DNA of 64,000 bases, taken from the NCBI RefSeq assembly GCF_040436365.1, contig NZ_AP026369.1, positions 1,179,501 through 1,243,500 on the forward strand. The letters run 5' to 3'. This DNA comes from Hydrogenimonas sp. SS33. GTDB lineage: Bacteria; Campylobacterota; Campylobacteria; Campylobacterales; Hydrogenimonadaceae. Each line of letters starts with the position of its first letter. Position 1 is the stretch's first letter. This document shows, piece by piece, positions 2,371 to 63,265 of this stretch. A program made the position numbers and the translations under genes. The notes under the pieces were generated by a model. It saw nothing but the letters and a program-made list of their open reading frames with translations, did not search any database and was not told the DNA's origin.

Positions 2371-5300
2371 ATGTCGAAACAGAAAAGATTATTCCAGCTA
2401 TTTTCCTGCACCCTTTTGTTCGCCGTTTTCCTGACGGGGAAAGCCTATGCCGCCACATCCCTGGTCGGGGACCTCTCCTATTCCGATTTCCATGCGGCCC
2501 CCAATCCCGTGGCCGTCAACGAAACGACCCACCTCTACACCAAAATCCATTACGACAGCGCAAAAAACGTATCGATCACCGCCAAAGTGCAGATAGAGAA
2601 AGGGCCGTTCTCCTTTCCCCCGGATTTCTCCAACAACGGGTGGAGCTGTTCCGACAAAGGATCCATCTACGAATGTACCTATTCCATCGCCCCGGGTGAC
2701 GACTCCAGCCTTCTCGACATCGCCCTCACCGCACCCGGAAGCACACAGAGCGTCACCCTCGACGCCAATGTCACTTCCGACGACATTCTCCCCGAAAGCG
2801 ACGGCGACAACGATGCCCAGACCACCGTCGGTGTCGGAAAATCGAATGTCGCCGCCGCCAAAACCTCGACACCGGATACCGTCAGTCTGGGAGAGGAATA
2901 TACCTATACGGTCGATATTACGAACGAGGAGAAATCCGGTGCCATCACCACACCCGCTTCCGGCATAAGAGTCGAGGACCCCATAGACGATACCTATCTG
3001 ACCATTACCGACTATTCCGGCAACACGGGATGGGATTGCGGCGCCTCCACCTCTTCCAAAATCGACTGCAGGCTCAACGGAAACCTGGAAGTCAATGCAT
3101 CCACGCAACTCGTTTTCAAGGTACGGACCGCAAACGACAAACTTCCCCCCGACAACAAAATCACCAATACCGCCCACGTCACCACTTCCACAAGCGACTG
3201 GGATGCGAACGACCAGGACCCCCATGCGGAGACGACGGTGCTGGGTACGGACCTCGAACTCGATCTTGCAGCCCCCCTATCGGTGCTGGTCGGCGCGACA
3301 GGTGTCGAATACAACGCCACCATACGCAATAAAAGCGGCATGAGCGCGAAGAACGTCAAACTGAATATTACCTTCTCCCATGCCGTAACGCTTCAGAATT
3401 CAACCCTTCCCGCAGGCTGGAGCTGCGATACCGGTAATGCAAAAACCTTTGCCTGCAGCTACTCGGGCGATCTCAACAGCAGTGCCGGCGACCAGAACCT
3501 CAAACTCTCCTTCGATTTTCCCGACGACTGGGTCGGCGGTGACGACTATACTTTCGAAGTCGTCTCCGATCCCGATATCGATACCGACAGTTCCAACAAC
3601 AAAAAAACGGGTACGACCCATGTCGAAGGAGCCGATGTCGTCATAACCAAAACCCCTCTCAATGCCACCAAAAACATCAACGATACCATCGCCTATACCT
3701 TCACCGTCACCAACAACGGAGCGGCGGCCGCCGAACAGGTTGCCTTTTCCGACCGGTTCTACAACAACGCCAATCAGGAAAAAGATGTCGAGCTGGTCTC
3801 CGCCAGCGGAGATTTCCAATGCTACCTCTCGCCCGGTGACACATTCAACGCCTTTTCGTGTGAATACAAGGACAACGGAGGTTCATGGAAAACACTGGCT
3901 TCCGGAGCCTCCGTTACCGAAACTCTGGAAGTACGGCTGATCGAATCTTCTTTCACCGCCTCTTCCACCAAGCTTCACAACCAGGCCCATGTCACCACCC
4001 AAACGACCGAAAACGACGATACCGATAACGACAGCGGCGTTGCGACCGTCACCGTCAGACTGCCCCAAATCGATGTGACCAAAGGCGCCGTCACCGCCAA
4101 CGGCGGAAACGACCTGACACTGGGTGAAACCTTCTATTATGAAATCAACGTCACAGAGAGCAACGGCGTCGATGTCCGAAACCTCTCACTGACCGATCAG
4201 CTGACGAACGGTGCCGACCGCATCACCGTCACCAACCTGAGCGGAAGCAACTGGGACTGCTCCGTTTCCGACATGAACTGCTCCTATACCGGAAACAACG
4301 GAATCTTCCCGGGAGGAAGCACTTCGACCATACGTGTCGACGCGAAAGCCTCCGACAGCCAGACGGGGCACTATACAAACCGGGCTTCCGTCAGCGCCAC
4401 GACCCCTTCGACGGGGGACAAAGATGATACCGTGTCGGGAGATATCGTCGGACCCGACTTTACTTTCACCAAAACCGTTCCGGCCAGCGTCACGGCCAAC
4501 GAAACCTTCGACGTCAATTTCACCGTCACAAATATCGGCCTCAGCGATGCCGAAGATGTGCGGCTTGTCGACGACCTCGTACTCAACGGAAAAGCGTTCA
4601 CCTGGACCCCCGCCGACCCGCCGAACTGGGATTGTACAACCCACTCCACCACCACGAAAATCGACTGTACCTATACCGGCAACAGCGGTGTTTTCCCCGG
4701 CAGGTCACAGACGACGGAGCATCTCTCTTTCACTGTCACGGCCCCCAATGCCGTCGGTGACTACACCAACAGTGCCCAGCTCGATTCCTCCACGACGGGC
4801 GGGCCCTGGAACGCAAGTGACTCCTTCTCGGTCGTCGGTGCGGACCTTCGGGCCGAAAAGAGCGTCACAACGCCCGCAAGCGGCTACGGGATCGCCAACG
4901 AGACGATGACCTACCAAATCACCGTATACAACGACGGCAACGCATTGGCAAAAGACGTGACCGCCCACGACGTTCTCGACAGCCGTATCGATCCCTCGAC
5001 GGTCACGGTCGACGGCTGTGACAACTCGCCTTCCGGTACCCTGGAAATCGATTGCCAGCTGCCCGACATCACGCCCCACGGCAGCCGGAGTTTCACCGTC
5101 ACTTTCACCGCTCCCGACATCGATGCCGACGATTTCCAAAACGAGGGGAACGTCTCCACATCCACAGCCGAAAACGATACCTCCAACAACACCTACTCCC
5201 TCACGAGTGAAATCCGCGGCGCCGACATCTTCGTCACCAAAACCATCGAGAACAAAAGTGAAACGAACGGCGTCTATCAGGCGAGTCTGGGAGAGGAGGC

Positions 5301-8300
5301 GGTCTTCGTCATCACCGTCAAAAACAGCGGAGAGGCCAACGCTTCGGGCATAACGCTCGAGGACCGCAGCATCGACCTCGACGGGGGAAGCCAGCGGATC
5401 CTGCTCACAGGCATCGCCGACGATGACGGAGGAAAATGGAGCTGCGGCAATTCATTCCCTACCACGACACTCGACTGCTCCTACAGCGGAACGCTCGCCG
5501 GAAACGGCGACTCCACCACCCTCAAAGTCAACGGCACCATGCCCGACTCGGCGGGGCACAAGCAGAACGAAGCCAACGCGTCCGCCGCCGTCGGTGCGGA
5601 AGCGAACCCCGGCAACAATCTGGGTGTCGCCAAAGTCGATGTCCAGAGTTACGACCTCAATATCACGAAAACACTGAACGGGGAAGCGGTGATCGACCGC
5701 AATGTGACATTCCGACTGGATATCCGCAACCTGGACCTTTCGGATATTTCCGATTTCTGGGTGCAGGACCAGCTCCCTGCCGGTTTCACCGCCGTATCCG
5801 CATCGGGTGACGGATGGAACTGTGACAGTTCGACACTCTACTGCGAATACAACGATACACTGGCCGGAAACAGCGGGCCCATATCTCTGACGGTCGTCGC
5901 AACGGCTCCTTCCACGGCGAAACTCTATACCAACAGGGCCGATGTCAACCACTCCAATGCCGCGGGAGATTCCGACCCGGCCAACAATGAAGACGCCCTG
6001 ACATTCCAGGTCTACGGTGCCGACCTGCATATCTACAAAACCGACGCCCCCGACCCGGTCGCACCCGGCGGCACCATTACCTACACCATCTCCATCGACA
6101 ATGCCGACGGCAGGGTCGACGCCGAAAACGTCACGATCGAGGATTCCATTCCCGCCCATACCGCTTTCGTAACCGATTCGAACCAGTCGCACAACGGCTG
6201 GGAGTGCGGTTTCGACGGCAACACCTTCACCTGTCACAAAGATCTTCTTCCGGCAGGAGCGGCACAGGAAGAGGTTCTCACCTTCCAGGTCAAAGTCGAT
6301 CCCGGTATTTCCGTACCCAACACCATATACAATACCGTCACGTCAGAAAACGACATCTCCGAACACGATTATGAAGACAACAACCTGACCGTCGAGACGG
6401 AGGTTCGAAAAGTCAATCTCAGGGTCAGAAAATTTGCCAATCACCAACATAAATCCTATGACTACGGTACACAAACCCAGTACGGATATGCCGGATTCGG
6501 TGACAAAATACGCTACCGGATACAATTTAGAAACAACTCTCCCCAGGGTGCACCGGATATCACCGACATCAACTTTACCGATACTCTTCCGGACAATGCC
6601 GAATACCTCGGATACACACCCGACGACCACTGGTCTTGCACCGAAAACAATACTTCTACCCCAAAAACTCTTACATGCCTGCTGGACCATTCCGTCTCCG
6701 TCGCACGAGGACAAAATGTGTACAGTCCCTATATTTATGTACGCATGCCCGACGCCGACAGCAGTTACGATACCTCTGATTATCACAACAACAAAGTCGT
6801 CAACCGCGTGACGGCGACCATCCCCCTGACGGAAGACACCTATGCGGACAACAACGCTTCGACCGTCACCTACCTCATGGGCAGCGACCTCCACATCGAA
6901 AAAACGGACGGGACAACAGATCACGAAGCGGGAGCCAACGCACCCCTGACCTATACCCTCTCCGTCAAAAACAGAAACGACCATCACCACGGTATCTGGG
7001 GGCTCTCCGATGCCGAGAATATCCGGGTACTTGACATCCTTCCCCCGGAAATCAATGCTTCCGACATCGACTTCTCGGGAACCGGCGGCGAATGGAACTG
7101 CAGTGTCAGCGGCGGGGTCGTCACCTGTGACGCCAACGGCACTCTCGAAAGCGGAGAGAGTCTCGGCAAAATCCGCATCCATACCCATGCCCCCAACCTG
7201 CTGGACGCCAACCTGACCAACAGTGCCCGCGTAACGAGCGACACCCCCGAACTCGACCTGCTTCTCGACGACAATGAAGCGAACGTCACGACCCATGTGA
7301 CAGGGGCGAACATCGACGTGATCATCACCGCCGACAAAAACAGCTCCGCCATGGCCGCACCGCTGACCTATACGGTCACCGTCAGGAATATCGGCAAAGG
7401 GGAAGCACGCGACGTCCGTTTCATAACCGGTATCGCTGGTGTGACCCGTGACTTCGGGTACACCTCCGTCGACAACGCCCCCGACTGGAACTGTACCCAG
7501 CCCGATGTCAACAAAAGTGTCGAATGTCTCTACAACGGTGTACTGGGTGAAGGAGACGAGGCTTCAGCCACGCTCCATGCCCTCACCCCGACCCAGACCG
7601 GCGGCCTCACCAACGAAGTCAACGCATCGACCAGTACCGTGGAGACCGATGCATACAATTTCGACAGTGTCACCACGACGATCGTGGGGGCGCAGCTCGT
7701 CCTGAACGTTTCACCCCAGCCCGACAGCGGCGGGGCTTTCATGCCGAAAACCTACACCTTCACCCTGAAAAACGACGGCCTCAGCCCCACGACGGACATC
7801 AACCTGACCCTTGCACCCGAATCGGTCTCGCCCTACGGCTTCGAAATCCTCGATGCCGACGGCACCGACTGGAACTGCACCCTCGACGGCAACACCTCCG
7901 CCGACTGCCTTTTCGGCAGCCTTGCGGCGGACGCATCCACCCAGGTTGTACTGAAGGTCCTGCTTCCCAACAAAGCGGGCGGCACCTACATCACCGGCAC
8001 TGCGGCCTACCGTTCCCTGGATGACAACCTCACGACGAGTGAAGTCAACGCCACGATCGACGTGACCGGATCCGACCTGACCGTCACCAAAACGGTACAA
8101 AACGACATGAACGCGACGGGATTCTACGATACCGTCAGTGTCGGCATCGACCAGAACATCACGTTCCGGCTCCAGGTGGAGAACCGAAACAGCGGCCGGG
8201 CACGCGACATCAATATCTCCGACGCTTTCGATACGCGATTCAAGGATATCAACGTCACCTCCGCGGGAGACTGGAACTGCAGCGTTTCGGGACACGATCT

Positions 8301-11300
8301 CCTCTGCACCCTTCCCGACCTGAATACGACCAACGGGACCACGGATGAAAACACTATCTTCATCCACGCCAAAACACCCGCCTACCCGGTCCCCGACGGC
8401 ATCGAAAATAACGCTTCCGTCGCATCGGTCACGGTAGAGAGCGACAGCGGCAACAATATCGACACGGCACTCGTCAAAGTCCTCGGGCCGGAGCTGACCG
8501 GAGATCTCGACGCCAATGTTTCCGTCGTGGCGATGAAAGATGATTTCAGGTATATCGTCAAGGTCACCAATGTAGGGTTCAGCCAGTCCGCAGACATCAA
8601 CCTGACCTATGACCTGCCCGACGGCATGAGTCTGGTGGGATCTGAGGACAACAGCAGCTGGACGGCGGGGTCTCTCTGGAGCTGTCACGACAGCAACGGC
8701 TCCGCCCCGGTCATCTGTGAATTCACCGACAATATGCCCCCCTACGGTGCCTACTCCTATATCACCCTGGATGTGAAGGCGCCCGGCTACCCGGGGCCGC
8801 TCGACAACAATTTCACCCTCGTCTACGACCACGAGACCAACATCACCGCATCTCCGCTGGTGACGGTATGGCCCGCCGACGTCGAAGCCGAAGCGGAAGC
8901 GCAACCCTCCGACGAAGTGCTCGCGGAACGCAACATCACCTATCGCATCCGGGTGGCGGACCTCAATATTTCCGACGCGGAAGATGTGAACCTGAGCCTC
9001 GATTTCATCCAGAACGACGCGTCGCACAACCCCGTTTCCATCGACACGGACGACAGTGACTGCAACGTTACGGGAGGCATCGTCCTCTGCCGGTTCGGCA
9101 CCATGGAGGCATTGAGCGAACGCAATATCACCGTCACCGTCACGGTACCCGACACCAATACCTCCTTCGCCTTCAAAGGGTCTCTCGACCTCAACACCAG
9201 CAGCCCGGAGGCCGACACGGACAACGACTTCGCCCTGCCTGCCGTCGAAGTCAAACCCATCCTTCCCGTCGCCGACTGGCGTATGGACGACTGTGTCTGG
9301 AACGGCACGGCCGGAGAGGTGACGGACCAGACGGGAAGCCACAACGGCACCGCACACAACGGCGCCCACACCTACAGCATGCTCCTGCCCCTCGCCAAAG
9401 ACGACACAAACCGCACCTCCTTCTGCAGAAGCGGCTATTTCGACGGTGACAATGACTATGTCGCCGTTGCGAACAGTTCCGAAATAAATACGGGCAAACA
9501 CAACAAACGCAGTATCTCCCTTTGGTTCAAAACAGAAAAAAGCGAAGGCACCCAGGTCATCTATGAGGAGGGGGGCGGCGCCAGAGGCCTGGCCGTCTAT
9601 ATCCAAAACGGCCAGCTTTTTGCGGGAGGATGGAATTCACCCGAATCGGGATGGAGCGGAACCTATCTGCCTGTCAGCTTTACATTGGGAAGATGGCACC
9701 ATGTCGTCCTCGTCCTTGATGCCGAAAAAGATGCGCAATACACCCAGCCGGAGGTTTTCAGAGGCTACCTCGACGGGACACTGTTTGGCGAAGGGGCCGG
9801 TTCGCAGCTCTGGAGCCACGGCGATGCCGTGGGCATCGGTGCCGTAAACGGAGGCACAAAAATACCCAACAGCAACGGCAAGAGGCCCTACCAGGGCCTC
9901 ATCGACGAAGTCAAAATCTTCAACATCGCCCTCGACGACCGGGCGGTCCACGAGATTTTCGAACGAGAGAAAGAGTATGTCAACTACGACGGCACCGCGC
10001 GTACCTGCATGGAGTGCGCCGCCAACCTCTCCGTGGACATCGACACGGTCAACGACATCAACGGCAGCATCGGGGCCGATTCGCTTTTGCGGTACCGCGT
10101 CACCGTCAAAAACGACTCCGACGACCCGGTGGGCAGGGAAGTCAACCTGACGGCGAATTTCGATGCCGACCTTTCATTCGAAGACAACCTGACCGTCGAC
10201 GGTCTCTGGTCATGCGGCGATTTCAACGCCTCCTCCCACATTCTCCCCTGCTACTTCCTGGGAGACGAGACCAACTACCTCGAACCGCACAGCACCAGCG
10301 TCTTCGAAATCTCCTTCCTCACCCAGAACCGCGAATACGAAGTCACGAGCGATGCGCACATTGACATCAACCAGACCAACGACGGGGATGAAGATGCGAG
10401 CGTCACCACCAAAGTGCTGGGCACCGACATGGCCGTAACAATGGACATTCCTGGTACACCGACGCGCAGTGAGGATTTTGACATTATCGTCCATGTCTCC
10501 AACCTCAGCGATGTCGCCGTCGCCAAAGCCGTCGAGGTCACGACTCTTTTCGACGACCTCGACTACGTCTCCACCGACTGCCCCAACGCGAACATCGGTG
10601 CACACCATGTGCAGTGCAGCCTGCCCAATTTCCAACCCAACGACAGTTTCGACTACAACATTACGGTGCGCAGCAACAGCGCACTGGCGACCACAACCGT
10701 TGCAAGCGACGTCAACACCAGCACCTTCGACCGCGACACCGATAACAACCACTACGACGTCTCCTTCAGTGTCGTCGACACCAACAACAGCACCGGCGAC
10801 ATACTCGAACAGCAGTTCATCGACTTCAGGCGCCACGCGGTATTCAACCGCTACGGCAATATGGTCGTCATCGGCAACAGCAACCTCAAACCGGCGGACG
10901 GCAACGACTACAACGGCTATCTGGCCGACCTCAACAGCTCCTTTGTCCAGACGGCGGGAGGGCCCAACTCCTCCGGCGCCGTTCTCAAACTCCCCGACGG
11001 CATTCCCGTTCAGGACCTTTCCATCGAATATGTAGGGCTCTACTGGAGCGGCCATGTCCACGGTGAGGAGGGAGACACCAACGACACGGGCGAATCGGTC
11101 CCCTACAACCAGGTCGCTCTCATCACCCCGTGGGGCGCTGAATACAACATCAGTGTCAATACCGGAAGCTCGGCGTCTGACGACAATATCACAGGCTACT
11201 ACTACTACAAAAAATCGGATGGCGTCTATCGCCGGTTCTACGCCTGTGAAGCCAATATCACGGGGATACTCGCCGACCGTGCGGAGCAGAACCTTTCGGT

Positions 11301-14300
11301 CGAGGGAAGCTATACCGTCAAAGGCATCCAGGCCGATGACGGCGTGGATGTCTATACCTATGCCCCGCTGCCCGGCAACAAATGGACTTCGCTTCTTGCC
11401 TACGGAAACTTCGGAGGGTGGAGCATGGTGGTCGTCTACAGCGTCGACCATAAAAAACACCGCGCCTTCAAATTCCGCAACCTGGCGGTTTTCGACGGCT
11501 ACCAGAAACTGGCGCCGGTACAGCCCGACACGAACGAGAGCATCCAACTCGACATCGGAGGCTTCATCACCCCCGTCAGCGGCAACATCGACTCCCAGAT
11601 CCGCCTCTTCACCTCCGGCTCGGAGCGGGCGGTCGATGCGGAGAGCATGACCATCACCGACAAAAACGGCACGGCCCACGAGGTTTACCGCGACCCCGTC
11701 AACCCCAAAGGCAACATTCTCAACGACACTATCGACCTCTATTACAACGAGGGGACCTCTATAACGAGAAATCTCTCCCTGGGTTACAATCCGGGCATCG
11801 ACGCCGACGAATTCAATGCGAGCAACTATCTGCAGAACGAGCAGAACGAAACGACGATCCGGCTGACCGCCTCCAAACCGGGGGTCGAGGGAGAACAGAC
11901 CTTCCCCTCCATGATCACTTTCGCCACCAACATCTATACACCCGACTTCATCGACTCCTACAAAGAGTGCTTCATCGAGCTGCCGGACGGAAACTACCTT
12001 CCCTGTGACGACCCCAATGCCAAAATCTACCGGGGAAGCACCGTCATCTACCGGGTCACCGTGGTCAATACCGGCGACATCTTCGCTTCGCACCTCACCA
12101 TCGTCGACCCGCTCCCCTACCAGCTCGATTTCGACAAAGAGAGTGCACAGTTCGTGGTCACCGTCCCCAAACCGCTGAACGGCCCCGATGCCGTCAAGGA
12201 CAACATCCTGCAGCCCGAAGGGATTCAGGAGATCAACGCTTCGCTCGACCCGGGATACAAGATTCCCCAGAACATGGTTTCATCCGTCTTCAACCCCGCC
12301 GGCGACGTAACCACCGAAGAGTTCACGGACGGGGAACACAACCGGACGAAGGTCATCATCAATCTCGACGACGTCATCAACAACAACTTCCCGGCCAGAC
12401 ATTTTGCCTGGGTCGAGTTCCGCACAAAGGTCAACAAGCAGGCTGAAATCAACGGTACCTTCGAAAACACGGCTATCATCAACTTCACCAACCCCACCCT
12501 GGAAGCCTTCGGCTACGCCGACGCCAACCAGACACAGGAGGCGGCCAGCGTCGGATCGCCTCCCGTCGAATTCCAGTGGGCCGTCATCGAAGGTAACGTC
12601 AAAGACCCGGGCCGGCTCAGCGTCGGCACGAAAATCGCTACGGCGAACGGTGAAGAGGCGTACAAATTCGACCTGAACATTTCGGTCGACGACAATGCCA
12701 CCTTCATCTCCTACTATCCCGATGTCAACCTCTCCATCGCCAGCATCCAGCTGGTCGACGGCGACGACGGAAACAGCACGGTCTACCCCGTGCATCTGGG
12801 CGGAAACCTCTACAGCACCTATCCCGACCTCAACGATTCCGCTTTCGTCAGCCCCGCATGGCTTCCCGTGTCGCAGGGCATGTCCTGGCGCACCGCCAAA
12901 ATCTTCTGGTCGGCCAGGGCCTACCGGAACCTCTATTTCAAAATCCGCTACAAAATCAAAATTCCGGGCATTCCCAACCCGGTATTGTCGCCCTACTATA
13001 AATACTACGGCGACCATTTCGCCATACGGCCGCGAAGTTTCCAATTCTCGTCCAGCGACTCCCTGGGAGTCACCACCTACAACGGCGAGCCCCACCTGGT
13101 CATGACCGCGGGACACCCCTTCGACGTCAACATCAGTGCGGTCGATATGGACGACATGACGGTACTCGACTACAATACCACCATCGACATCAACGAAACG
13201 GGCGCCCTCGAAACCGACGAAATGAACGCGACATGCTATCCCGAGGGGATCGGGGAACTCCATTTCAACAACGTGCTCTTCCTTAACGGTACGGCGATTC
13301 CTCTGCAGAATGTCAAATTCGACAATGTCGGCTTCGTCACTTTCCGTCTCAAAGACAACAACTGGACCATGGTCGACCGGGTCAACAACGACTGCAACGC
13401 GACCGACGACAACGACCAGGACCAGAACGACACACTGGTGAGCTGTGCCGTCAAAGGGGAACTCCGCTACCTCTTCGTTCCTGCCAAACTCAAAGTGGAG
13501 ACGGAAATCAACAACTGGGGAGCGGGCTTCACCTATATGCACAACAACCTGGACGAAATGAACGCAACCCTGACGGCGACAGTCACCTCCCTCAACGAAG
13601 AGGGCAACACGACGACCGCATTCATGGCGGGTTGCTACGCCGACGATGTCAACCTCACCCTCCAGTTCGCCGTCACGAGCCAGGACAAAAACGACATCAA
13701 CCTGCTCTGGAAAGCGGAAGAGAGTGCGGGGACACCCCCACCCATCGCCGATTTCGGAAACGGTGCCGGCATCATCAACGCCCTTGAGGTCAACGCATCG
13801 CTCTTCAACAACGGTATCGCCAATGCGGCGTACGCTTTCGACATCAACCGGTCGACGAAAAAGACCCATATGCCCGTCATTTTCGACAGCGCCAGCGGTC
13901 AGGCCGGCATCGACGACTACCTGACGACGAATGTCGACGTCGCTCCCGTCGCCTATGCACTGAACGCCGACAACAACGCGACATTCTGGTACGGACGGCT
14001 CCATGCCCCCGACTACCGCAGCCAAACCGCGGATATCGACACACCGATCTATATAGAGGTTTTCTGTAACGACGACCTGGCCGACTGCTCCTTCTACGGC
14101 ATCACCGGCATGGCGGAAAGTTCGGACGATGTCAACTGGTGGGTCAACGCCAAGGACAGCACTTCCGCGGTCGTCGACCTCAATGCGACGCAGCGGGGTG
14201 TAATATCTGATCCCTATATCAAGATAAACAACGGCACCAATGCCGTCACCGATCTGAATCTCCCCTTTGCCGGAGGGATTTCCAACAACAGCCCCACCGT

Positions 14301-14514
14301 CTCCTACACGGGCGGCGAAAATCTTTACAAAACGCGCATCCGCATCGATATCCACAACGGATGGCTCAGGTACAACCCCTTCTACAGCGACGGCCATACC
14401 GAATACAACGTCGAGTTCAACCTGCCCAACGACAAATGGTCGGGCATCGGGGCGAAAGGGGAGACGGTTGAAACCAACGGAAGCGCCAAAACCAACAGGA
14501 GGCTGGAATGGTAA
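2371..14514 (+). CDS. Giant secreted DUF11-repeat / LamG / MshQ-like surface protein
   Basis: I start at the ATG at 2371 (CAAGG about 10 bases upstream) because it opens a Sec signal peptide: basic MSKQKR, hydrophobic core, cut near AYA-ATS at residue 27. The mature protein is about 4020 residues, acidic and rich in Asp, Asn and Thr. Residues about 30-2290 and about 2545-2800 are tandem DUF11-type beta-sandwich repeats; I count 19 with a paired-Cys motif (usually W-x-C, then a second Cys about 8-15 residues on). A LamG-like lectin domain lies at about 2300-2540 (FDGDNDYVAV, SISLWFKTE, GRWHHVVLVLD). Residues about 2810-3095 resemble the DUF3344-like module common in DUF11 proteins (GGWSMVVVYS). 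After one more DUF11 unit, the C-terminal 650 residues (YGDHFAIRPRSFQF) resemble MshQ of MSHA pilus operons. It overlaps the first of three prepilin-like genes. It has no obvious sorting or beta-barrel anchor, so I infer a pilus-associated adhesin. Confidence 0.82.
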   Translation: MSKQKRLFQLFSCTLLFAVFLTGKAYAATSLVGDLSYSDFHAAPNPVAVNETTHLYTKIHYDSAKNVSITAKVQIEKGPFSFPPDFSNNGWSCSDKGSIYECTYSIAPGDDSSLLDIALTAPGSTQSVTLDANVTSDDILPESDGDNDAQTTVGVGKSNVAAAKTSTPDTVSLGEEYTYTVDITNEEKSGAITTPASGIRVEDPIDDTYLTITDYSGNTGWDCGASTSSKIDCRLNGNLEVNASTQLVFKVRTANDKLPPDNKITNTAHVTTSTSDWDANDQDPHAETTVLGTDLELDLAAPLSVLVGATGVEYNATIRNKSGMSAKNVKLNITFSHAVTLQNSTLPAGWSCDTGNAKTFACSYSGDLNSSAGDQNLKLSFDFPDDWVGGDDYTFEVVSDPDIDTDSSNNKKTGTTHVEGADVVITKTPLNATKNINDTIAYTFTVTNNGAAAAEQVAFSDRFYNNANQEKDVELVSASGDFQCYLSPGDTFNAFSCEYKDNGGSWKTLASGASVTETLEVRLIESSFTASSTKLHNQAHVTTQTTENDDTDNDSGVATVTVRLPQIDVTKGAVTANGGNDLTLGETFYYEINVTESNGVDVRNLSLTDQLTNGADRITVTNLSGSNWDCSVSDMNCSYTGNNGIFPGGSTSTIRVDAKASDSQTGHYTNRASVSATTPSTGDKDDTVSGDIVGPDFTFTKTVPASVTANETFDVNFTVTNIGLSDAEDVRLVDDLVLNGKAFTWTPADPPNWDCTTHSTTTKIDCTYTGNSGVFPGRSQTTEHLSFTVTAPNAVGDYTNSAQLDSSTTGGPWNASDSFSVVGADLRAEKSVTTPASGYGIANETMTYQITVYNDGNALAKDVTAHDVLDSRIDPSTVTVDGCDNSPSGTLEIDCQLPDITPHGSRSFTVTFTAPDIDADDFQNEGNVSTSTAENDTSNNTYSLTSEIRGADIFVTKTIENKSETNGVYQASLGEEAVFVITVKNSGEANASGITLEDRSIDLDGGSQRILLTGIADDDGGKWSCGNSFPTTTLDCSYSGTLAGNGDSTTLKVNGTMPDSAGHKQNEANASAAVGAEANPGNNLGVAKVDVQSYDLNITKTLNGEAVIDRNVTFRLDIRNLDLSDISDFWVQDQLPAGFTAVSASGDGWNCDSSTLYCEYNDTLAGNSGPISLTVVATAPSTAKLYTNRADVNHSNAAGDSDPANNEDALTFQVYGADLHIYKTDAPDPVAPGGTITYTISIDNADGRVDAENVTIEDSIPAHTAFVTDSNQSHNGWECGFDGNTFTCHKDLLPAGAAQEEVLTFQVKVDPGISVPNTIYNTVTSENDISEHDYEDNNLTVETEVRKVNLRVRKFANHQHKSYDYGTQTQYGYAGFGDKIRYRIQFRNNSPQGAPDITDINFTDTLPDNAEYLGYTPDDHWSCTENNTSTPKTLTCLLDHSVSVARGQNVYSPYIYVRMPDADSSYDTSDYHNNKVVNRVTATIPLTEDTYADNNASTVTYLMGSDLHIEKTDGTTDHEAGANAPLTYTLSVKNRNDHHHGIWGLSDAENIRVLDILPPEINASDIDFSGTGGEWNCSVSGGVVTCDANGTLESGESLGKIRIHTHAPNLLDANLTNSARVTSDTPELDLLLDDNEANVTTHVTGANIDVIITADKNSSAMAAPLTYTVTVRNIGKGEARDVRFITGIAGVTRDFGYTSVDNAPDWNCTQPDVNKSVECLYNGVLGEGDEASATLHALTPTQTGGLTNEVNASTSTVETDAYNFDSVTTTIVGAQLVLNVSPQPDSGGAFMPKTYTFTLKNDGLSPTTDINLTLAPESVSPYGFEILDADGTDWNCTLDGNTSADCLFGSLAADASTQVVLKVLLPNKAGGTYITGTAAYRSLDDNLTTSEVNATIDVTGSDLTVTKTVQNDMNATGFYDTVSVGIDQNITFRLQVENRNSGRARDINISDAFDTRFKDINVTSAGDWNCSVSGHDLLCTLPDLNTTNGTTDENTIFIHAKTPAYPVPDGIENNASVASVTVESDSGNNIDTALVKVLGPELTGDLDANVSVVAMKDDFRYIVKVTNVGFSQSADINLTYDLPDGMSLVGSEDNSSWTAGSLWSCHDSNGSAPVICEFTDNMPPYGAYSYITLDVKAPGYPGPLDNNFTLVYDHETNITASPLVTVWPADVEAEAEAQPSDEVLAERNITYRIRVADLNISDAEDVNLSLDFIQNDASHNPVSIDTDDSDCNVTGGIVLCRFGTMEALSERNITVTVTVPDTNTSFAFKGSLDLNTSSPEADTDNDFALPAVEVKPILPVADWRMDDCVWNGTAGEVTDQTGSHNGTAHNGAHTYSMLLPLAKDDTNRTSFCRSGYFDGDNDYVAVANSSEINTGKHNKRSISLWFKTEKSEGTQVIYEEGGGARGLAVYIQNGQLFAGGWNSPESGWSGTYLPVSFTLGRWHHVVLVLDAEKDAQYTQPEVFRGYLDGTLFGEGAGSQLWSHGDAVGIGAVNGGTKIPNSNGKRPYQGLIDEVKIFNIALDDRAVHEIFEREKEYVNYDGTARTCMECAANLSVDIDTVNDINGSIGADSLLRYRVTVKNDSDDPVGREVNLTANFDADLSFEDNLTVDGLWSCGDFNASSHILPCYFLGDETNYLEPHSTSVFEISFLTQNREYEVTSDAHIDINQTNDGDEDASVTTKVLGTDMAVTMDIPGTPTRSEDFDIIVHVSNLSDVAVAKAVEVTTLFDDLDYVSTDCPNANIGAHHVQCSLPNFQPNDSFDYNITVRSNSALATTTVASDVNTSTFDRDTDNNHYDVSFSVVDTNNSTGDILEQQFIDFRRHAVFNRYGNMVVIGNSNLKPADGNDYNGYLADLNSSFVQTAGGPNSSGAVLKLPDGIPVQDLSIEYVGLYWSGHVHGEEGDTNDTGESVPYNQVALITPWGAEYNISVNTGSSASDDNITGYYYYKKSDGVYRRFYACEANITGILADRAEQNLSVEGSYTVKGIQADDGVDVYTYAPLPGNKWTSLLAYGNFGGWSMVVVYSVDHKKHRAFKFRNLAVFDGYQKLAPVQPDTNESIQLDIGGFITPVSGNIDSQIRLFTSGSERAVDAESMTITDKNGTAHEVYRDPVNPKGNILNDTIDLYYNEGTSITRNLSLGYNPGIDADEFNASNYLQNEQNETTIRLTASKPGVEGEQTFPSMITFATNIYTPDFIDSYKECFIELPDGNYLPCDDPNAKIYRGSTVIYRVTVVNTGDIFASHLTIVDPLPYQLDFDKESAQFVVTVPKPLNGPDAVKDNILQPEGIQEINASLDPGYKIPQNMVSSVFNPAGDVTTEEFTDGEHNRTKVIINLDDVINNNFPARHFAWVEFRTKVNKQAEINGTFENTAIINFTNPTLEAFGYADANQTQEAASVGSPPVEFQWAVIEGNVKDPGRLSVGTKIATANGEEAYKFDLNISVDDNATFISYYPDVNLSIASIQLVDGDDGNSTVYPVHLGGNLYSTYPDLNDSAFVSPAWLPVSQGMSWRTAKIFWSARAYRNLYFKIRYKIKIPGIPNPVLSPYYKYYGDHFAIRPRSFQFSSSDSLGVTTYNGEPHLVMTAGHPFDVNISAVDMDDMTVLDYNTTIDINETGALETDEMNATCYPEGIGELHFNNVLFLNGTAIPLQNVKFDNVGFVTFRLKDNNWTMVDRVNNDCNATDDNDQDQNDTLVSCAVKGELRYLFVPAKLKVETEINNWGAGFTYMHNNLDEMNATLTATVTSLNEEGNTTTAFMAGCYADDVNLTLQFAVTSQDKNDINLLWKAEESAGTPPPIADFGNGAGIINALEVNASLFNNGIANAAYAFDINRSTKKTHMPVIFDSASGQAGIDDYLTTNVDVAPVAYALNADNNATFWYGRLHAPDYRSQTADIDTPIYIEVFCNDDLADCSFYGITGMAESSDDVNWWVNAKDSTSAVVDLNATQRGVISDPYIKINNGTNAVTDLNLPFAGGISNNSPTVSYTGGENLYKTRIRIDIHNGWLRYNPFYSDGHTEYNVEFNLPNDKWSGIGAKGETVETNGSAKTNRRLEW

Positions 14515-15266
14515 GACGTGCCGGTTTCTCTTTTATCGAACTGGTAGTCTCCATCGTCGTCATCGGCATCGTCTTCATGTCCGTGCCGCTGATACTGGTG
14601 GAGACCCAGAAGAGTTCCGCCTTCTCGACCCAGCAGGAGGGAATCATGGTAGGCGTGACTTCCATGGTGAGCATACTCGGCTACCGCTGGGACGAAGCCG
14701 AGACCAACCGGACCCGAAACGGCGGTTTCGCCAAAGTGTGCGACGTTACGGGCGGGGATGCGGAGCTTGGACGGACAACCAACGTATTCGGGCAGGAAAC
14801 GAACCGCAGAAGGGGCCATTTCAAAGGCGAGTACCGAAGAAAATTTTACGACCCCATTTTCAACGACCTTCTCTTCTTCCCGAATGACCAGGCGGTCGCA
14901 CAGGGATACCGCCCCCAAAACACCTACGCCACCTATTCCTCCCATTTGGGGTTGGACCCGGATGACAACGGTATCTACGACGATATCGACGACTTCAACT
15001 CCACAGCTTCCAATCTAACGGGGGGAGGCATCCGCGACTACAAATTCGCCTACTCCATTTCGACGCGGGTCTACTATATCGACGACGACTATACCTACGG
15101 CGGGTCCAATACGATGAATGTCTCCATATCGAAACAGAAGACCGATGACATGACCAACATCAAAATGGTGGAGAACAACGTCACCAGCGACGAGGGTTCG
15201 ATCCTCTTCTATGCCTTCTCCTCCAACATCGGTGAATACAAAATTCTACACAGGACTTTCGAGTGA
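14508..15266 (+). CDS. Prepilin-like protein 1 of the adhesin operon
   Basis: This 252-residue protein has a type IV prepilin N-terminus: short basic leader MVRRAG, cleavage before Phe in G-FSFIELVVSIVVIG with the conserved Glu at mature position 5, then a hydrophobic helix. The remainder (about 220 residues) is soluble and polar with an Asp-rich DDNGIYDDIDD stretch that could bind calcium. It starts 7 bases before the end of the giant gene and overlaps the next gene by 4 bases, so all four are one translational unit. Minor pilins or pseudopilins near a giant tip protein usually prime a pilus. I cannot assign it to a named minor pilin. Confidence 0.8.
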   Translation: MVRRAGFSFIELVVSIVVIGIVFMSVPLILVETQKSSAFSTQQEGIMVGVTSMVSILGYRWDEAETNRTRNGGFAKVCDVTGGDAELGRTTNVFGQETNRRRGHFKGEYRRKFYDPIFNDLLFFPNDQAVAQGYRPQNTYATYSSHLGLDPDDNGIYDDIDDFNSTASNLTGGGIRDYKFAYSISTRVYYIDDDYTYGGSNTMNVSISKQKTDDMTNIKMVENNVTSDEGSILFYAFSSNIGEYKILHRTFE

Positions 15267-16168
15267 GATTTTTCAGACGCGCTTTCACAATGGTCGAACT
15301 GGTCCTGGTCATTGTCGTATTCGGCATTTTGGCGATGATCAGTGCCGATATATTCGTGAAAATCTACGACAACTACATCATCGCCAGAACCATGAACAAC
15401 CTGCAGACCCAGACCGAACTGGTTCTGGACCAGGTGGCAAGAAGACTCCAGTCGCGGATCAAGGACAGCACCATCGCACGCCTGGAAGCCAACAGCACCG
15501 AGTACGTCTTCCTCGGCGATGCCAACGAATCCTACAAAGTACTTGAATGGATAGGCTCCGCCGAAGAGGCGCGCAGAGGAAAGTGGGACGGCAACAAATA
15601 TGCACCGGGATGGAGCGGATACATCGACCTCGATGCCCCCGGGACGGGAAAAGCCTCGGCCGTCACGCCCGGCAGCCGCCTCGACTTCGCGAACAGCATC
15701 ATCTCCGACCTCTCCCGGAATGTCGTCAAACTCGACGGTACCGCCGGCTGGCCCGCGGTGGTCATGGATGGGCATGTGGGGGACTACAACGTCTCCTCCT
15801 ATGGATGGCACCCCCACCATGACAACAAATATGCCCTGTGGGTAAAAAGATTCGGAAATACACGGTTCGACTTCAACTCCACGGCGAAAAAAGAGATTTA
15901 CGAACACTACAAGCTCGCATGGAGCGCCTACGCCGTCGTACCCCAGTGCCCCGACGGTGTGAACGACGACTGCAACCTGACACTCTATTACAACTATCGG
16001 CCCTGGCAGAGCCAAAAATTCACGGACGGTTCCTCTTCCCTCCTGTCGGAACATGTAACAACCTTCAAATTCCGTCAGATGGGAGATGCGGTACGGCTCA
16101 AACTCTGCATCGGAGAGAATTTCTACGACAAGAACATCTCGTTCTGCAAAGAGAAGGTGGTATTCTGA
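15263..16168 (+). CDS. Prepilin-like protein 2 of the adhesin operon
   Basis: It starts with GTG in a GTGA overlap with the preceding gene. The leader MRFFRRA precedes FTMVELVLVIVVFGILAM, a class III prepilin signal with Glu at mature position 5 and Ala rather than Gly before the cut. The 301-residue length is large for a minor pilin and fits GspJ/PilW-like subunits. The exported part contains several Cys near the C-terminus (QCPDGVNDDCN, KLCIGENF, ISFCKEK), suggesting disulfides. It probably co-assembles with its neighbours and the giant protein; the precise role is unknown. Confidence 0.8.
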   Translation: MRFFRRAFTMVELVLVIVVFGILAMISADIFVKIYDNYIIARTMNNLQTQTELVLDQVARRLQSRIKDSTIARLEANSTEYVFLGDANESYKVLEWIGSAEEARRGKWDGNKYAPGWSGYIDLDAPGTGKASAVTPGSRLDFANSIISDLSRNVVKLDGTAGWPAVVMDGHVGDYNVSSYGWHPHHDNKYALWVKRFGNTRFDFNSTAKKEIYEHYKLAWSAYAVVPQCPDGVNDDCNLTLYYNYRPWQSQKFTDGSSSLLSEHVTTFKFRQMGDAVRLKLCIGENFYDKNISFCKEKVVF

Positions 16169-16602
16169 TGAGGCACGGCTTTACACTTCTTTCGGCGATC
16201 TTCCTGATGGTGCTCATCGCGACGTTGATGGTGCTGGCATTCTCGCTCTCGGCCCAGACCAAGAAGCAGACCGGTGACATCTACATGCAGGAGCAGGCCT
16301 ATCTCCTCGGACGAAGCGCGACGGAATTCGCCCTTCTTGCCATCTCCGGACATGACAACAATGACTCCTGCCTGGAACAGATCAATATGCAGTTTCCCGA
16401 CGGGGAGCCCCTGTTTGATGTCAACATGACCCTTTACTATGTGGGTAACGGCCTCAAATGCAACGCCGGCCATCTTCTCGCCAACAATATCGCCACCGAC
16501 GAATCCAACGGAACGGTGCTCATCGACACCATCGTCAGCTATACCGACCCGGCGACGGACGAGCAGGTGCGTTTCCACCGCAGGACCATCCAAAAGCCTT
16601 AA
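16168..16602 (+). CDS. Prepilin-like protein 3 of the adhesin operon (PilX/GspK-like)
   Basis: I start at the ATG at 16168, which overlaps the previous stop by one base (TGATG). The 144-residue protein opens MRHG-FTLLSAIFLMVLIATLM: a prepilin cut site, but mature position 5 is Ser instead of Glu. A missing Glu5 is typical of tip-type minor pilins such as GspK and PilX, where the charge is not needed for docking onto a preceding subunit. The C-terminal half has two Cys (residues about 71 and 97). It ends the adhesin operon; hpf follows with its own promoter. Confidence 0.75.
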   Translation: MRHGFTLLSAIFLMVLIATLMVLAFSLSAQTKKQTGDIYMQEQAYLLGRSATEFALLAISGHDNNDSCLEQINMQFPDGEPLFDVNMTLYYVGNGLKCNAGHLLANNIATDESNGTVLIDTIVSYTDPATDEQVRFHRRTIQKP

Positions 16603-52737: not shown

Positions 52738-53496
52738 ATGAAAAAGCGAGGCACTTTGGCGATATTCTACATCCGGGAGAACGAGACCGTGACATTGCCC
52801 CGGGCGGAGAAGGGAGAAGACTTCGTCATCCTCTCCCCTTCCCTCTACTGGTATACCCATGCCCGGTTCCCTACCCGATCTCTGGCCAAAGCGAAGCGTC
52901 TTGCGGATGCGTTCATGGACTCCCGCCCCGAAAGTTACAGGGAAATCTATGTGGAAAAGCGGGGGGAGGGGTACGACTGTTACGCCTACGATCCGGAGGT
53001 GCTCCGCATCCGCCTCGAAGAGGAGGGGGCGTCCGGGCTTCCCTGCTATTTTCTGCAGCAGTTCGCCGACGAGATGCCCCTTCGCATAGGCGACGACCTC
53101 ATCGCCGAAGCGGTCAACGGGGTCTGCCTGGAGTTCCGGGACTCGAACCGCTCCCTTCCGGAGCTCGCGTCGCTCGACTTCCGTGCCGTGGCGAAGCCCT
53201 TCAACAAAGGGAAAAGCGCCGGCGGCGTCCGAAGGGGTGTCTATCTGCTGCTCGGGTTCTTCGCGGCAGCCATGCTTCTCGACCTGGGGGTGCGCCTGCA
53301 GGGTTACATGGCACTTCAAAAGGCGACGGAGAATCTGCGTACCGACCGCTCTCTCTACGAAATCCGGGCGATGGTGAAACGGTACGAGACGACGGCACAG
53401 AAGCAGGCGAAACTGCGCAGGGAGATCGCCCGTGCGCTCAAAGGGCATCTGAAGAGGCTCGAATGCACGCCGGAGGGAGGGTGCAAAAGTGAATAG
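52738..53496 (+). CDS. gspL: GspL-like type II secretion assembly protein
   Basis: The protein has a cytoplasmic domain of about 165 residues, one membrane helix (GVYLLLGFFAAAMLLDLGV) and a periplasmic coiled coil, the plan of GspL, which links the GspE ATPase to the inner membrane platform. Sequence similarity to classical GspL is weak; the call depends on position before gspM- and gspN-like genes. The start is uncertain: ATG at 52738 has no ribosome site, while TTG codons at 52705 and 52714 lie just after GGAG and would add 8 to 11 residues. It overlaps the next gene by 8 bases. Confidence 0.65.
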   Translation: MKKRGTLAIFYIRENETVTLPRAEKGEDFVILSPSLYWYTHARFPTRSLAKAKRLADAFMDSRPESYREIYVEKRGEGYDCYAYDPEVLRIRLEEEGASGLPCYFLQQFADEMPLRIGDDLIAEAVNGVCLEFRDSNRSLPELASLDFRAVAKPFNKGKSAGGVRRGVYLLLGFFAAAMLLDLGVRLQGYMALQKATENLRTDRSLYEIRAMVKRYETTAQKQAKLRREIARALKGHLKRLECTPEGGCKSE

Positions 53497-53878
53497 AGTG
53501 CTTCTCGCCTCCTTCGCGGCACTGGCGGCCACCTGGATCATCGCCGCGGCGGTGATCGGGCAGAAGAGCAGCCAGGCCGAAAGCGACTACCGGGAAAGGG
53601 CCCGGCTGATTCAGCGCTACGACACCCTCAAATCCCGCTGGTCCGAAAAGGGGCAGCGGGAACTGCGGAGCAAGATGGAGACCCTGCTCCGTATCTACGG
53701 CATCCGGCCCGACATCCAAAAACGGCGTGACAGGAAGGTCTACACCTTCACCCTGACGAAGAAGAGGGCCGACAATGTGATGAACAAGCTGCTTCATATG
53801 CCCCTGGCGATCTCCCGCCTGAGCGCGGAAAAGAGCGATGCCACCCATCTGAAGGTGACGGTGGAGCTGCCCCGATGA
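53489..53878 (+). CDS. gspM: GspM-like type II secretion protein
   Basis: This 129-residue protein starts with GTG (GGAGGG ahead), has one N-terminal membrane helix (VLLASFAALAATWIIAAAVIG), a coiled coil (residues about 28-65) and a small alpha/beta domain, as in GspM/PilO. GspM partners GspL in the inner membrane. The sequence is divergent and the call rests on size, topology and place between gspL- and gspN-like genes, each overlapping by a few bases. Confidence 0.65.
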   Translation: MNRVLLASFAALAATWIIAAAVIGQKSSQAESDYRERARLIQRYDTLKSRWSEKGQRELRSKMETLLRIYGIRPDIQKRRDRKVYTFTLTKKRADNVMNKLLHMPLAISRLSAEKSDATHLKVTVELPR

Positions 53879-54384
53879 AATGGCTGAAGCGGACCGGCAT
53901 TCTCCTCGTTGCGCTCCTTGCCTGGGCCTTTTTCACGGGCCTTTTCCTCTCCAAGGAGCGCCTGTGCAACCTGGCGCTGCAGGAGCTGCAAAAGGAGCAG
54001 GTCACCCTCTGTTTCGAAGAGAGGAAAACATCTCCCGCAGGGTGTGAACAGAAGTTCACTACCCTCCTCTACGGCCACTCCCCCATCGCCAAAATCAAGG
54101 CGTTGCGCCTGACCCCCTGGAGCCTTTCCCTGCAAAGCATCCGGCTGGAGGGGATCGCCGCCTCCCTGCTCCCCCCGAGGATCGAAAAAGCGGAGTTCCA
54201 TCCGTTGACGGGAACGCTCTACGCCCGGGGAGATTTCGGCACACTGGAAGGCACCCTCTCATACCGCCGCAGGAGGATCAGGCTGGTTCTGACACCCTCC
54301 TCCCTCATGAAGCGTTCCTACCGGCAGGCGCTGAGGGAGTTCAAACCGAAAAACGGAAAGTATCTCTATGAAACCGGTTTCTGA
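53875..54384 (+). CDS. gspN: GspN-like bitopic protein
   Basis: The 169-residue protein has one N-terminal membrane helix (residues about 8-26) and a periplasmic beta-rich part (ALRLTPWSLSLQSIRLEGIA, GTLYARGDFGTLEGTLSYRR) typical of the GspN/AsmA-like fold. Classical GspN is about 250 residues, so this is a short version. Position after gspM and overlap of 17 bases with gspC support it. Two Cys (about residues 32 and 46) could form a disulfide. Its role in secretion is accessory and not well defined. Confidence 0.6.
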   Translation: MKWLKRTGILLVALLAWAFFTGLFLSKERLCNLALQELQKEQVTLCFEERKTSPAGCEQKFTTLLYGHSPIAKIKALRLTPWSLSLQSIRLEGIAASLLPPRIEKAEFHPLTGTLYARGDFGTLEGTLSYRRRRIRLVLTPSSLMKRSYRQALREFKPKNGKYLYETGF

Positions 54385-55192
54385 AAAAGCGCTCTTTGCC
54401 GCCGTCGCTGCCGGTATCGTCCTGACGGCGGCCGTCATCGCCGCCTCCCTCATCGACCTTTTCCTGCCGCCGCTGCCCCATCTGGAGTGCCGGCAGAGTG
54501 CGGCATGGCCGAAAGAGAGCTACCGCTTCGCCGCCGCCTTCGGCCTGCAGGCGCCCAAACCGGTGCAGCACACGAAAAAGAGAGCCACGGCGCCGGTGGT
54601 CAACCTGCACGGCTACCAGCTCACCATGACCGCCGTCGGAAAGCCGAGTATGGCGATCATCGTGCACAACCACCGGAGCAAACTTCTCGGTATCGGCGAG
54701 AGCATCGACGGATTCGTCCTGAAAGAGGTCTATACCGACCGGGTCAGGCTGGAGAAAAACGGCAGAACCTACTGGCTGAGCATGAAAAAGAAGAAATCCT
54801 CCACCATCCGCACCCAAAAAGCGGAAGCCCGCAGCGCCAAAAGCGGGAATCCGGAGGAGATGATCCGCAGGGAAGGCAATACCTACTACGTCCCCCGGGA
54901 GCTTCTGACAGAAATGCACGACCTGAGAAAGATATTCAAATATATCGCCATCAGACCGATCTATAGAAACAACCGGATCATCGGATACGGCATCACCCAG
55001 GTGAAAAAAGGGTCGGTTTTCGATAAAATGGGGTTACGTAAACGTGATATCATACAAAAAGTCAACGGAAAACCGGTCACGAACGAAGCCGAAGCCTTCA
55101 AATATTTCAACAATATCGGCGAATTGAGTTCACTGACACTGACGATCAAACGGGGGCACAGGATTTTGGAGCTGAACTATGAAGTCTTTTAA
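54368..55192 (+). CDS. gspC: GspC-like type II secretion protein with PDZ domain
   Basis: The 274-residue protein has a membrane helix (residues about 9-32), a homology-region domain (about 78-140, AIIVHNHRSKLLGIGESIDG) and a C-terminal PDZ domain (about 200-274, GSVFDKMGLRKRDIIQKVNG). This is the full GspC plan: the HR domain contacts the secretin N0 domain and the PDZ is thought to recruit substrates. It directly precedes and overlaps gspD by 14 bases. Relatives lacking the PDZ act in DNA uptake in Campylobacter. Confidence 0.85.
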   Translation: MKPVSEKALFAAVAAGIVLTAAVIAASLIDLFLPPLPHLECRQSAAWPKESYRFAAAFGLQAPKPVQHTKKRATAPVVNLHGYQLTMTAVGKPSMAIIVHNHRSKLLGIGESIDGFVLKEVYTDRVRLEKNGRTYWLSMKKKKSSTIRTQKAEARSAKSGNPEEMIRREGNTYYVPRELLTEMHDLRKIFKYIAIRPIYRNNRIIGYGITQVKKGSVFDKMGLRKRDIIQKVNGKPVTNEAEAFKYFNNIGELSSLTLTIKRGHRILELNYEVF

Positions 55193-57020
55193 CTCGCTTT
55201 TGCTGCTGCTGTCGGCACTGCTTCTGCCGATGATGCTGCATGCCGAAAAAATCACGATCAACTTCAACAACACCCCGATCCGTGACGTCATACGCTTCGT
55301 AGCGAAAGAGACCCACAAAAACATTCTCATTACCGGAAAAATCAGCGGAACGGTTAACTTCGTCGCCGAAACGCCCATCGACAAGTCGGAACTCATTCCC
55401 CTTCTGACCCAGATACTGCAAAACCGCGGCTATACCATCATCGACGGCCACAACGGCTACATGATGGTCACACGTGCGGCCAACGCCAAGAAGATGGCAA
55501 GCCCCGACCAAAACGCGGAAGCGGGAATGGTGACGAAGATCATAAGGGTCCACTACATCAAGGCCAGCGACGCGGTCCAGAAACTCCGCTATCTCAGCAG
55601 CCAGTTCGCCTCCGTCACCTTCGACAACAACAAAAACGTCATCATCATGACCGACTACCCGCGGCAGATCAAGTCGTTCGAAACGACGCTCAGGAAGATC
55701 GACCAGCCGATGCGCAAGGAGATCCGTTTCATCTCCCTCGACAATGCCGACGCGACCTCGGCACTCAAGGAGCTCAACGCCATCTTCAAGGCGCTCAACA
55801 CCACTTTCCGCTTCCCCGTCACGATCAACGCCGACGCCAAGAGCAACAAGATCGTCGTCATCGCTGACGCCCACGACATCGACAAGGCGGTCCGCATCGT
55901 CCGCCGCTTCGACAGCCAGAACCGGGCCAAAGAGGTGATGAGCGACGTGGTCTTCCTCAACAATGCCGAAGCCGGGGCGACCGTGAAGATCCTGACGGGG
56001 CTCATGAAGAGTTTCGACAAGGAGACGCAGCAGCACGTTTCGGTCCAGGCGAAGGAGGATATCAACGCCATCGCCATCACCGGTTCCCCCCAGGCGGTAA
56101 AACTCATCACCAAGGTGATCAAACGCCTCGACATCGAACCCCAGCAGGTCTACGTCAAAGCCCACATCTACGAGATCAGCCAGCGGAAACTCCAGAACCT
56201 GGGGGTCAGATGGGGCCTCACGGGCGGCACGGTCACCGGCAACACCCTCCTCACCTCCGTCTTCAACATGGGCGGCTCCTCCTTCGTCCTTCCCGCGTTC
56301 CTCTCCGACAGCATCAACCTGGAAGAGGGAAAAACGGCCCTTGCCGTCGGTGCCGTCATCGACCTGCTCAAGCAAAACGGTGCCGTCAACGTCATCAGCG
56401 AGCCCAACATTCTCTGCCTCAACAACAAAAAATCCTCCGTCTACGTAGGCAAAACCATCTCCATCCTCACCAGCACGGTCCAGGGGAACCAGAGCACCGA
56501 CCTCGCCCGCAACACCTACAGCCGGGAGGATGTGGGGCTGACGCTGGAGGTCAAGCCCCAGATCGCCAGCGACAACAAGGTGATGATGGTGGTCAAGACC
56601 AAAATCGAAGACATCGACCAGGCCAACACAAAAGAGGTGGACCGGCCCACCACGCTGAAGCGGGAGGTCAACACCGTCTCCATCGTCCACAACGGCGAGA
56701 GCGTCATCATCGGCGGGCTCCTGAAAGACTACTACGCAAAAGGGGTCAGCAAAGTCCCCCTGCTGGGCGACCTTCCCTTTCTCGGCCACCTCTTCACCTC
56801 CACCAACGACACAAAAGACCAGATCAACGTCATCGTCATCCTGACCCCCTACATCATCAAAAACAGCGAATCCCTCGCCCAGATCCAGGAGCAGATCGCC
56901 GAGACCGAAAAGCTGAAATCGAAACTGGCCCAGATCCTCGGCCGGAAACTGGCGGAGCAGAAGAAAGCGTTCAAAAAAGAAGAGAAAGAGACTGTACCCG
57001 GCGATGTTTTCAACCGTTAA
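55179..57020 (+). CDS. gspD: Type II secretion secretin GspD
   Basis: GspD forms the outer membrane channel of 12-15 subunits. The 613-residue protein has a signal peptide (ending MMLHA), an N0 domain (INFNNTPIRDVIRFVAKETHKN), N1-N3 KH-like domains (to about residue 310) and the secretin barrel domain (about 325-565) with VYVKAHIYEIS, SEPNILCLNNKKSSVYVG and VPLLGDLPFLGHLF motifs. The last 45 residues are a charged coiled coil, possibly a pilotin-binding S domain. It overlaps gspE by 17 bases. The Campylobacter transformation secretin CtsD is a relative. Confidence 0.93.
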   Translation: MKSFNSLLLLLSALLLPMMLHAEKITINFNNTPIRDVIRFVAKETHKNILITGKISGTVNFVAETPIDKSELIPLLTQILQNRGYTIIDGHNGYMMVTRAANAKKMASPDQNAEAGMVTKIIRVHYIKASDAVQKLRYLSSQFASVTFDNNKNVIIMTDYPRQIKSFETTLRKIDQPMRKEIRFISLDNADATSALKELNAIFKALNTTFRFPVTINADAKSNKIVVIADAHDIDKAVRIVRRFDSQNRAKEVMSDVVFLNNAEAGATVKILTGLMKSFDKETQQHVSVQAKEDINAIAITGSPQAVKLITKVIKRLDIEPQQVYVKAHIYEISQRKLQNLGVRWGLTGGTVTGNTLLTSVFNMGGSSFVLPAFLSDSINLEEGKTALAVGAVIDLLKQNGAVNVISEPNILCLNNKKSSVYVGKTISILTSTVQGNQSTDLARNTYSREDVGLTLEVKPQIASDNKVMMVVKTKIEDIDQANTKEVDRPTTLKREVNTVSIVHNGESVIIGGLLKDYYAKGVSKVPLLGDLPFLGHLFTSTNDTKDQINVIVILTPYIIKNSESLAQIQEQIAETEKLKSKLAQILGRKLAEQKKAFKKEEKETVPGDVFNR

Positions 57021-59690: not shown

Positions 59691-59691
59691 C

Positions 59692-63231: not shown

Positions 63232-63238
63232 TTTTGGA

Positions 63239-63244
63239 TATAAT
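63239..63244 (+). promoter_or_regulatory. -10 box for waaC
   Basis: A consensus TATAAT lies 21 bases before the waaC ATG, right after the gspK stop. AAGGG is the probable ribosome site. No -35 is visible. Confidence 0.55.
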
Positions 63245-63265
63245 ATCGACAAAAACAAGGGTTCC

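Follow-up and report, generated by a model that had tools for sequence, protein, structure and literature searches.

A gene for a giant secreted protein runs directly into three genes for prepilin-like proteins in the window analysed here (64,000 bases; bases 1,179,501-1,243,500 of the closed 2.25 Mb genome of Hydrogenimonas sp. SS33), and this raises the question of what these four products build together and which machine assembles it. A first-pass annotation, made from the letters of the window, had read them as a pilus tip adhesin of very long reach and its minor subunits, with motor genes situated elsewhere or supplied by the gsp system. With good though not full confidence, our analysis favors a reading of the four genes as a cassette for the tip of a second type IV pilus of the MSHA type, whose machinery is scattered, in this vent bacterium and its relatives. 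The features on which this rests are as follows (window coordinates):

2371..14514, + strand: Q2, giant secreted MshQ-like protein, 4,047 aa (Pfam; C-terminal family across Campylobacterales)
2371..2451, + strand: Sec-type signal peptide of Q2, residues 1-27, MSKQKRLFQLFSCTLLFAVFLTGKAYA, with presumed cleavage after AYA
2458..9405, + strand: DUF11 (Ig-like) repeat array of Q2, approximate limits (Pfam)
9442..9948, + strand: LamG / concanavalin-A-like lectin domain of Q2, residues 2358-2526 (PF13385, E=7.4e-17)
12712..14511, + strand: C-terminal 600 residues of Q2, divergent DUF6701/MshQ-type module with motifs DxFaiRP, CyA and yYgRxhaPDY (DUF6701 homology via relatives)
14434..14511, + strand: conserved C-terminal tail of Q2, last 26 residues, WxGxG...NxS...RR(I/L)EW (predicted to be disordered in isolation; candidate segment for docking onto pilins)
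14508..15266, + strand: I-like minor prepilin (GspI/PilV/MshD position), Glu5 present
15263..16168, + strand: J-like minor prepilin (GspJ/PilW/MshO position), Glu5 present
16168..16602, + strand: K-like minor pilin (GspK/PilX/MshP position), without Glu5

A giant secreted protein with a repetitive stalk and a lectin domain

The size and secretion of Q2 were correctly recognized from the outset: its reading frame, preceded by a ribosome-site-like AAGGTG, has the full claimed length and opens with a Sec-type signal. The stalk of about 20 DUF11 domains that had been proposed corresponds to 18 stretches in Pfam across the whole protein (E=1.3e-118), many of these repeats bearing a WxC...C pair; 14 of the 15 WxC..C motifs in the protein lie inside the array. 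Tandem DNA repeats underlying the array were sought and none were found, which implies that the protein repeats are old or diverged. The LamG domain, likewise reported earlier, is the only one that Pfam detects in Q2, and the beta-propeller domain of PilY1 (PF05567) has no Pfam match in the protein. Upstream of the gene, a search for structured RNAs, including riboswitches, returned no Rfam match at gathering scores, with the sub-threshold matches being attributable to chance.

Three minor pilins with the features of a tip set

The claimed coupling by overlaps of 1 to 7 bases is borne out by the gene coordinates (Q2/I, 7 bases; I/J, 4; J/K, 1), once the start of the third pilin gene is corrected to 16168, the open frame from 15838 being merely an upstream extension. 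The prepilin-like nature of each product is recovered by a different route. The second gene of the cassette, I, matches N_methyl in Pfam above its cut-off (E=6e-5); the third, J, falls slightly below the Pfam cut-off but exceeds that of the NCBIfam prepilin model; and the fourth, K, which has no strong match to a pilin family (GspK, E=0.0016), is modeled as a pilin fold with a 60-residue helix and a four-stranded sheet (pLDDT 90). Fold searches with this model gave minor pseudopilins (XcpGHIJK, EpsI) as the matches of best probability, albeit with insignificant E-values, while the GspK profile matches 28 of the 37 K relatives. At mature position 5, Glu is found in 42 of 44 I relatives and in all 45 J relatives as opposed to none of 41 K relatives. 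Together with the class III signal of I and J, this pattern is that of type IV minor pilins of the I-J-K kind and, on these sequence features, the three proteins constitute an I-J-K tip set. Tip complexes have been described in a review as being capped by a subunit lacking Glu5 (PMC10191384).

A constant C-terminal module and pilin set with variable heads

Of 60 related genomes, 33 contain a relative when searched with the C-terminus of Q2, a number that rose to 46 with a profile search; the publicly available congeners are Hydrogenimonas MAGs. The order Q-I-J-K, with Q immediately before I, recurs at approximately 40 distinct loci from many families of Campylobacterales, usually between proC and raiA, so that the four genes do stay together in other genomes; their failure to do so had been named in the first-pass annotation as an observation that would refute its reading. 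Among genomes at least 90% complete, J and Q are both present in 32, one without the other in 2 + 2, and neither in 14. Six sampled genomes depart from the Q-I-J-K pattern: in five (G022, G028, G031, G039, G048) I-J-K has no Q next to it, and G038 has an additional Q standing alone.

Across the relatives, Q ranges from about 800 to 4,065 aa in length, with the C-terminal 600 residues and I-J-K remaining constant. The N-terminal part displays DUF11 and LamG, Big_9/cadherin or Calx-beta domains, or nothing known, and DUF11 is few or absent in most of the scanned relatives. Judged from these architectures, the DUF11 stalk is a variable, lineage-specific add-on and not what defines the Q family.

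Several loci show further variations. In the f12/f15 families (L156, L158, L165) I-J-K directly follows proC and Q is elsewhere or non-adjacent; at L156 and L158 K has also lost its usual RRTIQKP end. Three loci (L068, L073, L149) carry two tandem Q genes ahead of a single I-J-K, an arrangement that suggests duplication of the adhesin on one tip. One genome (G025, contigs 6 and 26) has two cassette copies with identical J profile scores, reflecting either a duplication or an assembly artefact.

The C-terminus of Q2 and its conserved tail

The MshQ-like C-terminus that had been claimed for Q2 is not detectable directly, with no match to DUF6701 in its own C-terminus at E<=1, but it comes into view through relatives. 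DUF6701, which we take to be the MshQ domain, is matched by 7 of 39 Q family members in profile searches (best 9.5e-23), and one congener protein (G008 C13) matches both DUF6701 (2.8e-16) and the C-terminal query from Q2 (1.2e-8). On these grounds we treat Q as a divergent MshQ-type family. The AF2 model of the Q2 C-terminus, built from an alignment of 14 sequences, is a string of Ig-like beta domains (mean pLDDT 73), in which the last 26 residues have a pLDDT of 30-50, a value that the shallowness of this alignment might itself have lowered. The tail is nonetheless among the most conserved parts of the family alignment, with just 18 of 574 windows reaching the same level, and Trp is the final residue in 44 of 45 distinct Q tails. 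This combination of conservation with predicted disorder suggests a partner-binding segment, which we infer to dock onto pilins.

The same region bears on a further possibility, namely that the pilus machine secretes Q as an adhesin, either free or bound to the outer membrane, in the manner of TcpF or CofJ, with I-J-K acting as an export tip. Minor pilins with secreted partners do exist, and the conserved tail could be an export signal. However, on inspection the tail does not show the alternation of hydrophobic residues that marks an outer-membrane beta-signal. Moreover, an independently folding anchor, which had been named beforehand as the observation that would speak against a tip adhesin, was not recovered: a search of solved structures with the Q2 C-terminus gave nothing, and Foldseek with its model retrieved only generic Ig-like sandwiches at TM < 0.3 and no known anchor fold. 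Further, loss of mshQ in V. cholerae results in less surface MSHA and does not prevent retraction (PMC7096442), a phenotype that fits a tip or priming role. Hence, we regard an exported adhesin as quite unlikely and retain the tip-adhesin reading.

The motor is most likely an MSHA-type locus elsewhere in the genome

The host genome encodes three extension-type ATPases, two PilT-type ATPases and one prepilin peptidase. The extension ATPase inside the window belongs to a T2SS, whose cluster (window 53489-64000) comprises T2SSC, the secretin GspD, GspE, GspF and its own prepilins. Two other loci are of the MSHA type in combining an MshEN-bearing MshE with AAA MshM-like and TPR MshN-like proteins, a secretin and MshG. 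Locus 1 (1.84-1.86 Mb) has the secretin, MshM, MshE and MshG along with a paralogous Q1-I-J-K. Q1 (L029:9749-15013; G000:C1:1837749-1843013) displays three LamG stretches, which also score as pentraxin, and an H-type lectin domain. Locus 2 (L031:8414-17858; G000:C1:346414-355858), which is 0.83 Mb from the Q2 cassette, codes for a PilO-like protein, a secretin, AAA and TPR proteins, MshE with MshEN, and MshG, and the region around it (338-358 kb) has no N_methyl match that would point to adjacent pilins. This pilin-less, complete-looking locus occurs in nearly all congeners. The ATPases of the two loci, MshE1 and MshE2, fall into separate clades (SH-aLRT 100 and 89) in a quick tree, the careful tree search being unfinished.

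The phyletic patterns connect the cassette to this type of motor. Among genomes at least 90% complete, all 34 that bear J have an MSHA-type MshE (one counted from a partial gene), and none of the 7 without such an MshE has J. The MshE belongs to the MshE2 clade in 27 of these 34 genomes; against the pairing stand the 7 in which it lies outside this clade and five genomes of comparable completeness that possess MshE2 but no J2. Three essentially complete genomes (G026, G032, G036) combine the cassette with MshE2 as their sole extension ATPase, alongside PilT-type ATPases and without any GspE. In G037, the MshE2 locus lies approximately 6 kb from the cassette, the only case of motor and cassette as neighbors. 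The co-occurrence with MshE, the MshE2-only relatives and this proximity single out MshE2 of locus 2 (346-356 kb) as, most likely, the best motor candidate for the Q2 cassette, in keeping with the proposal that the motor genes are elsewhere.

Two other assignments of the machinery were weighed against this one. First, the Q2 cassette might be an alternative tip served by locus 1: this locus has a full motor with its own Q-I-J-K, and alternative PilY1 tip clusters are swapped on one pilus in Myxococcus xanthus (PMC13190605). As against this, MshE1 is missing from 21 of the 34 J-bearing genomes; J1 tracks MshE1 (14/2/1/33), whereas J2 does so without significance (13/21/2/14, p=0.1); and the tail of Q1, with a conserved RRxxGVKLFR, is unlike that of Q2. 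A shared motor thus appears unlikely. Second, the T2SS in the window might use I, J and K as its pseudopilins or partners, with Q as a substrate, given that I-J-K is also the tip set of T2SS and K resembles GspK. This alternative, which the first-pass annotation had left standing as the gsp system, we consider very improbable: prepilins distinct from I, J and K are encoded within the T2SS region, I-J-K is paired with Q inside the MSHA locus too, and the three cassette-bearing relatives without GspE rule out a T2SS as the general partner. Under the favored pairing with MshE2, the pilins of the shaft would probably come from a third place. In the host genome and in G010, G032 and G036, genes for major-type pilins have priA or uvrB as a neighbor, whereas those of G026 have other genes around them; we guess, from their presence only, that those near priA at 1947-1949 kb are probably the shaft pilins.

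A proposed mechanism and its implications

The cassette, pilin and motor evidence fit the earlier idea of a pilus tip adhesin, and Q2 is best read as an MshQ-type tip adhesin that would be the functional counterpart of PilY1, furnished with a lineage-specific DUF11 stalk. We posit that Q is exported via Sec, and that I, J and K assemble in the inner membrane into an initiation complex, with K distal, which would prime the pilus. The C-terminal module of Q would cap this complex, and its Trp-ended tail would dock onto K or onto a pilin next to it. MshE2 from locus 2 might then extend the pilus, probably in a c-di-GMP-dependent manner through MshEN, and push Q outward on the tip. There the stalk of about 20 domains and the LamG lectin head could reach ligands, probably glycans on surfaces or neighbors, with retraction perhaps being effected by the PilT-type ATPases.

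At a more general level, we tentatively suggest, at somewhat less than even confidence, that MshQ-type proteins constitute another class of tip adhesins, the second, with a fold unrelated to PilY1, filling its place throughout Campylobacterota and attached by a disordered Trp-terminated tail to a Glu5-less pilin. Such an attachment would allow heads to be exchanged on a single docking module, as might be the case in proteins of 800 to >4,000 residues. The kind of pilus is already known; what is new is the split arrangement involving its MSHA-type tip genes, the first position of Q and the very long stalk. MshQ has been called a putative adhesin (PMC7096442) and listed as a component of unknown function (PMC9815625), and a review places MSHA in just a few Proteobacteria (PMC10191384). 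Our findings suggest that MshQ plays a role like that of PilY1, and they point to a second, dispersed pilus of the MSHA type across Campylobacterota, beyond the range given in that review. The Q family offers a conserved C-terminal module and tail that lend themselves to testing, together with a paired motor and heads that vary naturally.

Comparison with known systems

The cassette resembles mshD-mshO-mshP-mshQ of the V. cholerae MSHA system in joining minor pilins with a large MshQ. The parallel extends to the motor loci, which share with Vibrio MSHA the MshEN-bearing MshE, the MshM-like AAA and MshN-like TPR proteins, MshG and the secretin, as well as the order L-M-N-E-G. However, Q comes first here and MshQ last in Vibrio; the genes for the cassette, the motor and the likely shaft pilins are spread over three sites; and Q2 differs from Vibrio MshQ in a C-terminus too divergent for DUF6701 and in its added DUF11 stalk. 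With the T2SS tip GspI-GspJ-GspK the cassette shares the same I-J-K set and the Glu5-less K, whose fold weakly resembles XcpGHIJK and EpsI, though the cassette is set apart by its Q partner and its occurrence without GspE. With DUF11-repeat adhesins Q2 shares a long tandem Ig-like stalk combined with LamG, except that the repeats are not the defining trait of its family.

Finally, PilY1 and its FimU-PilV-PilW-PilX clusters in T4aP provide a parallel at the level of organization. Q2 has Ig-like beta domains in its AF2 model instead of the beta-propeller of PilY1; PF05567 has no match in the 60 relatives, where equally silent control genomes keep this result from proving absence. In models of the PilX-PilY1 pair the two proteins join by beta-strand complementation (PMC13190605). 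Like Q, PilY1 is large, modular and secreted, its N-terminus varying while its C-terminus is conserved, and its genes too lie alongside those of minor pilins, with frequent overlaps and several clusters per genome (PMC13190605).
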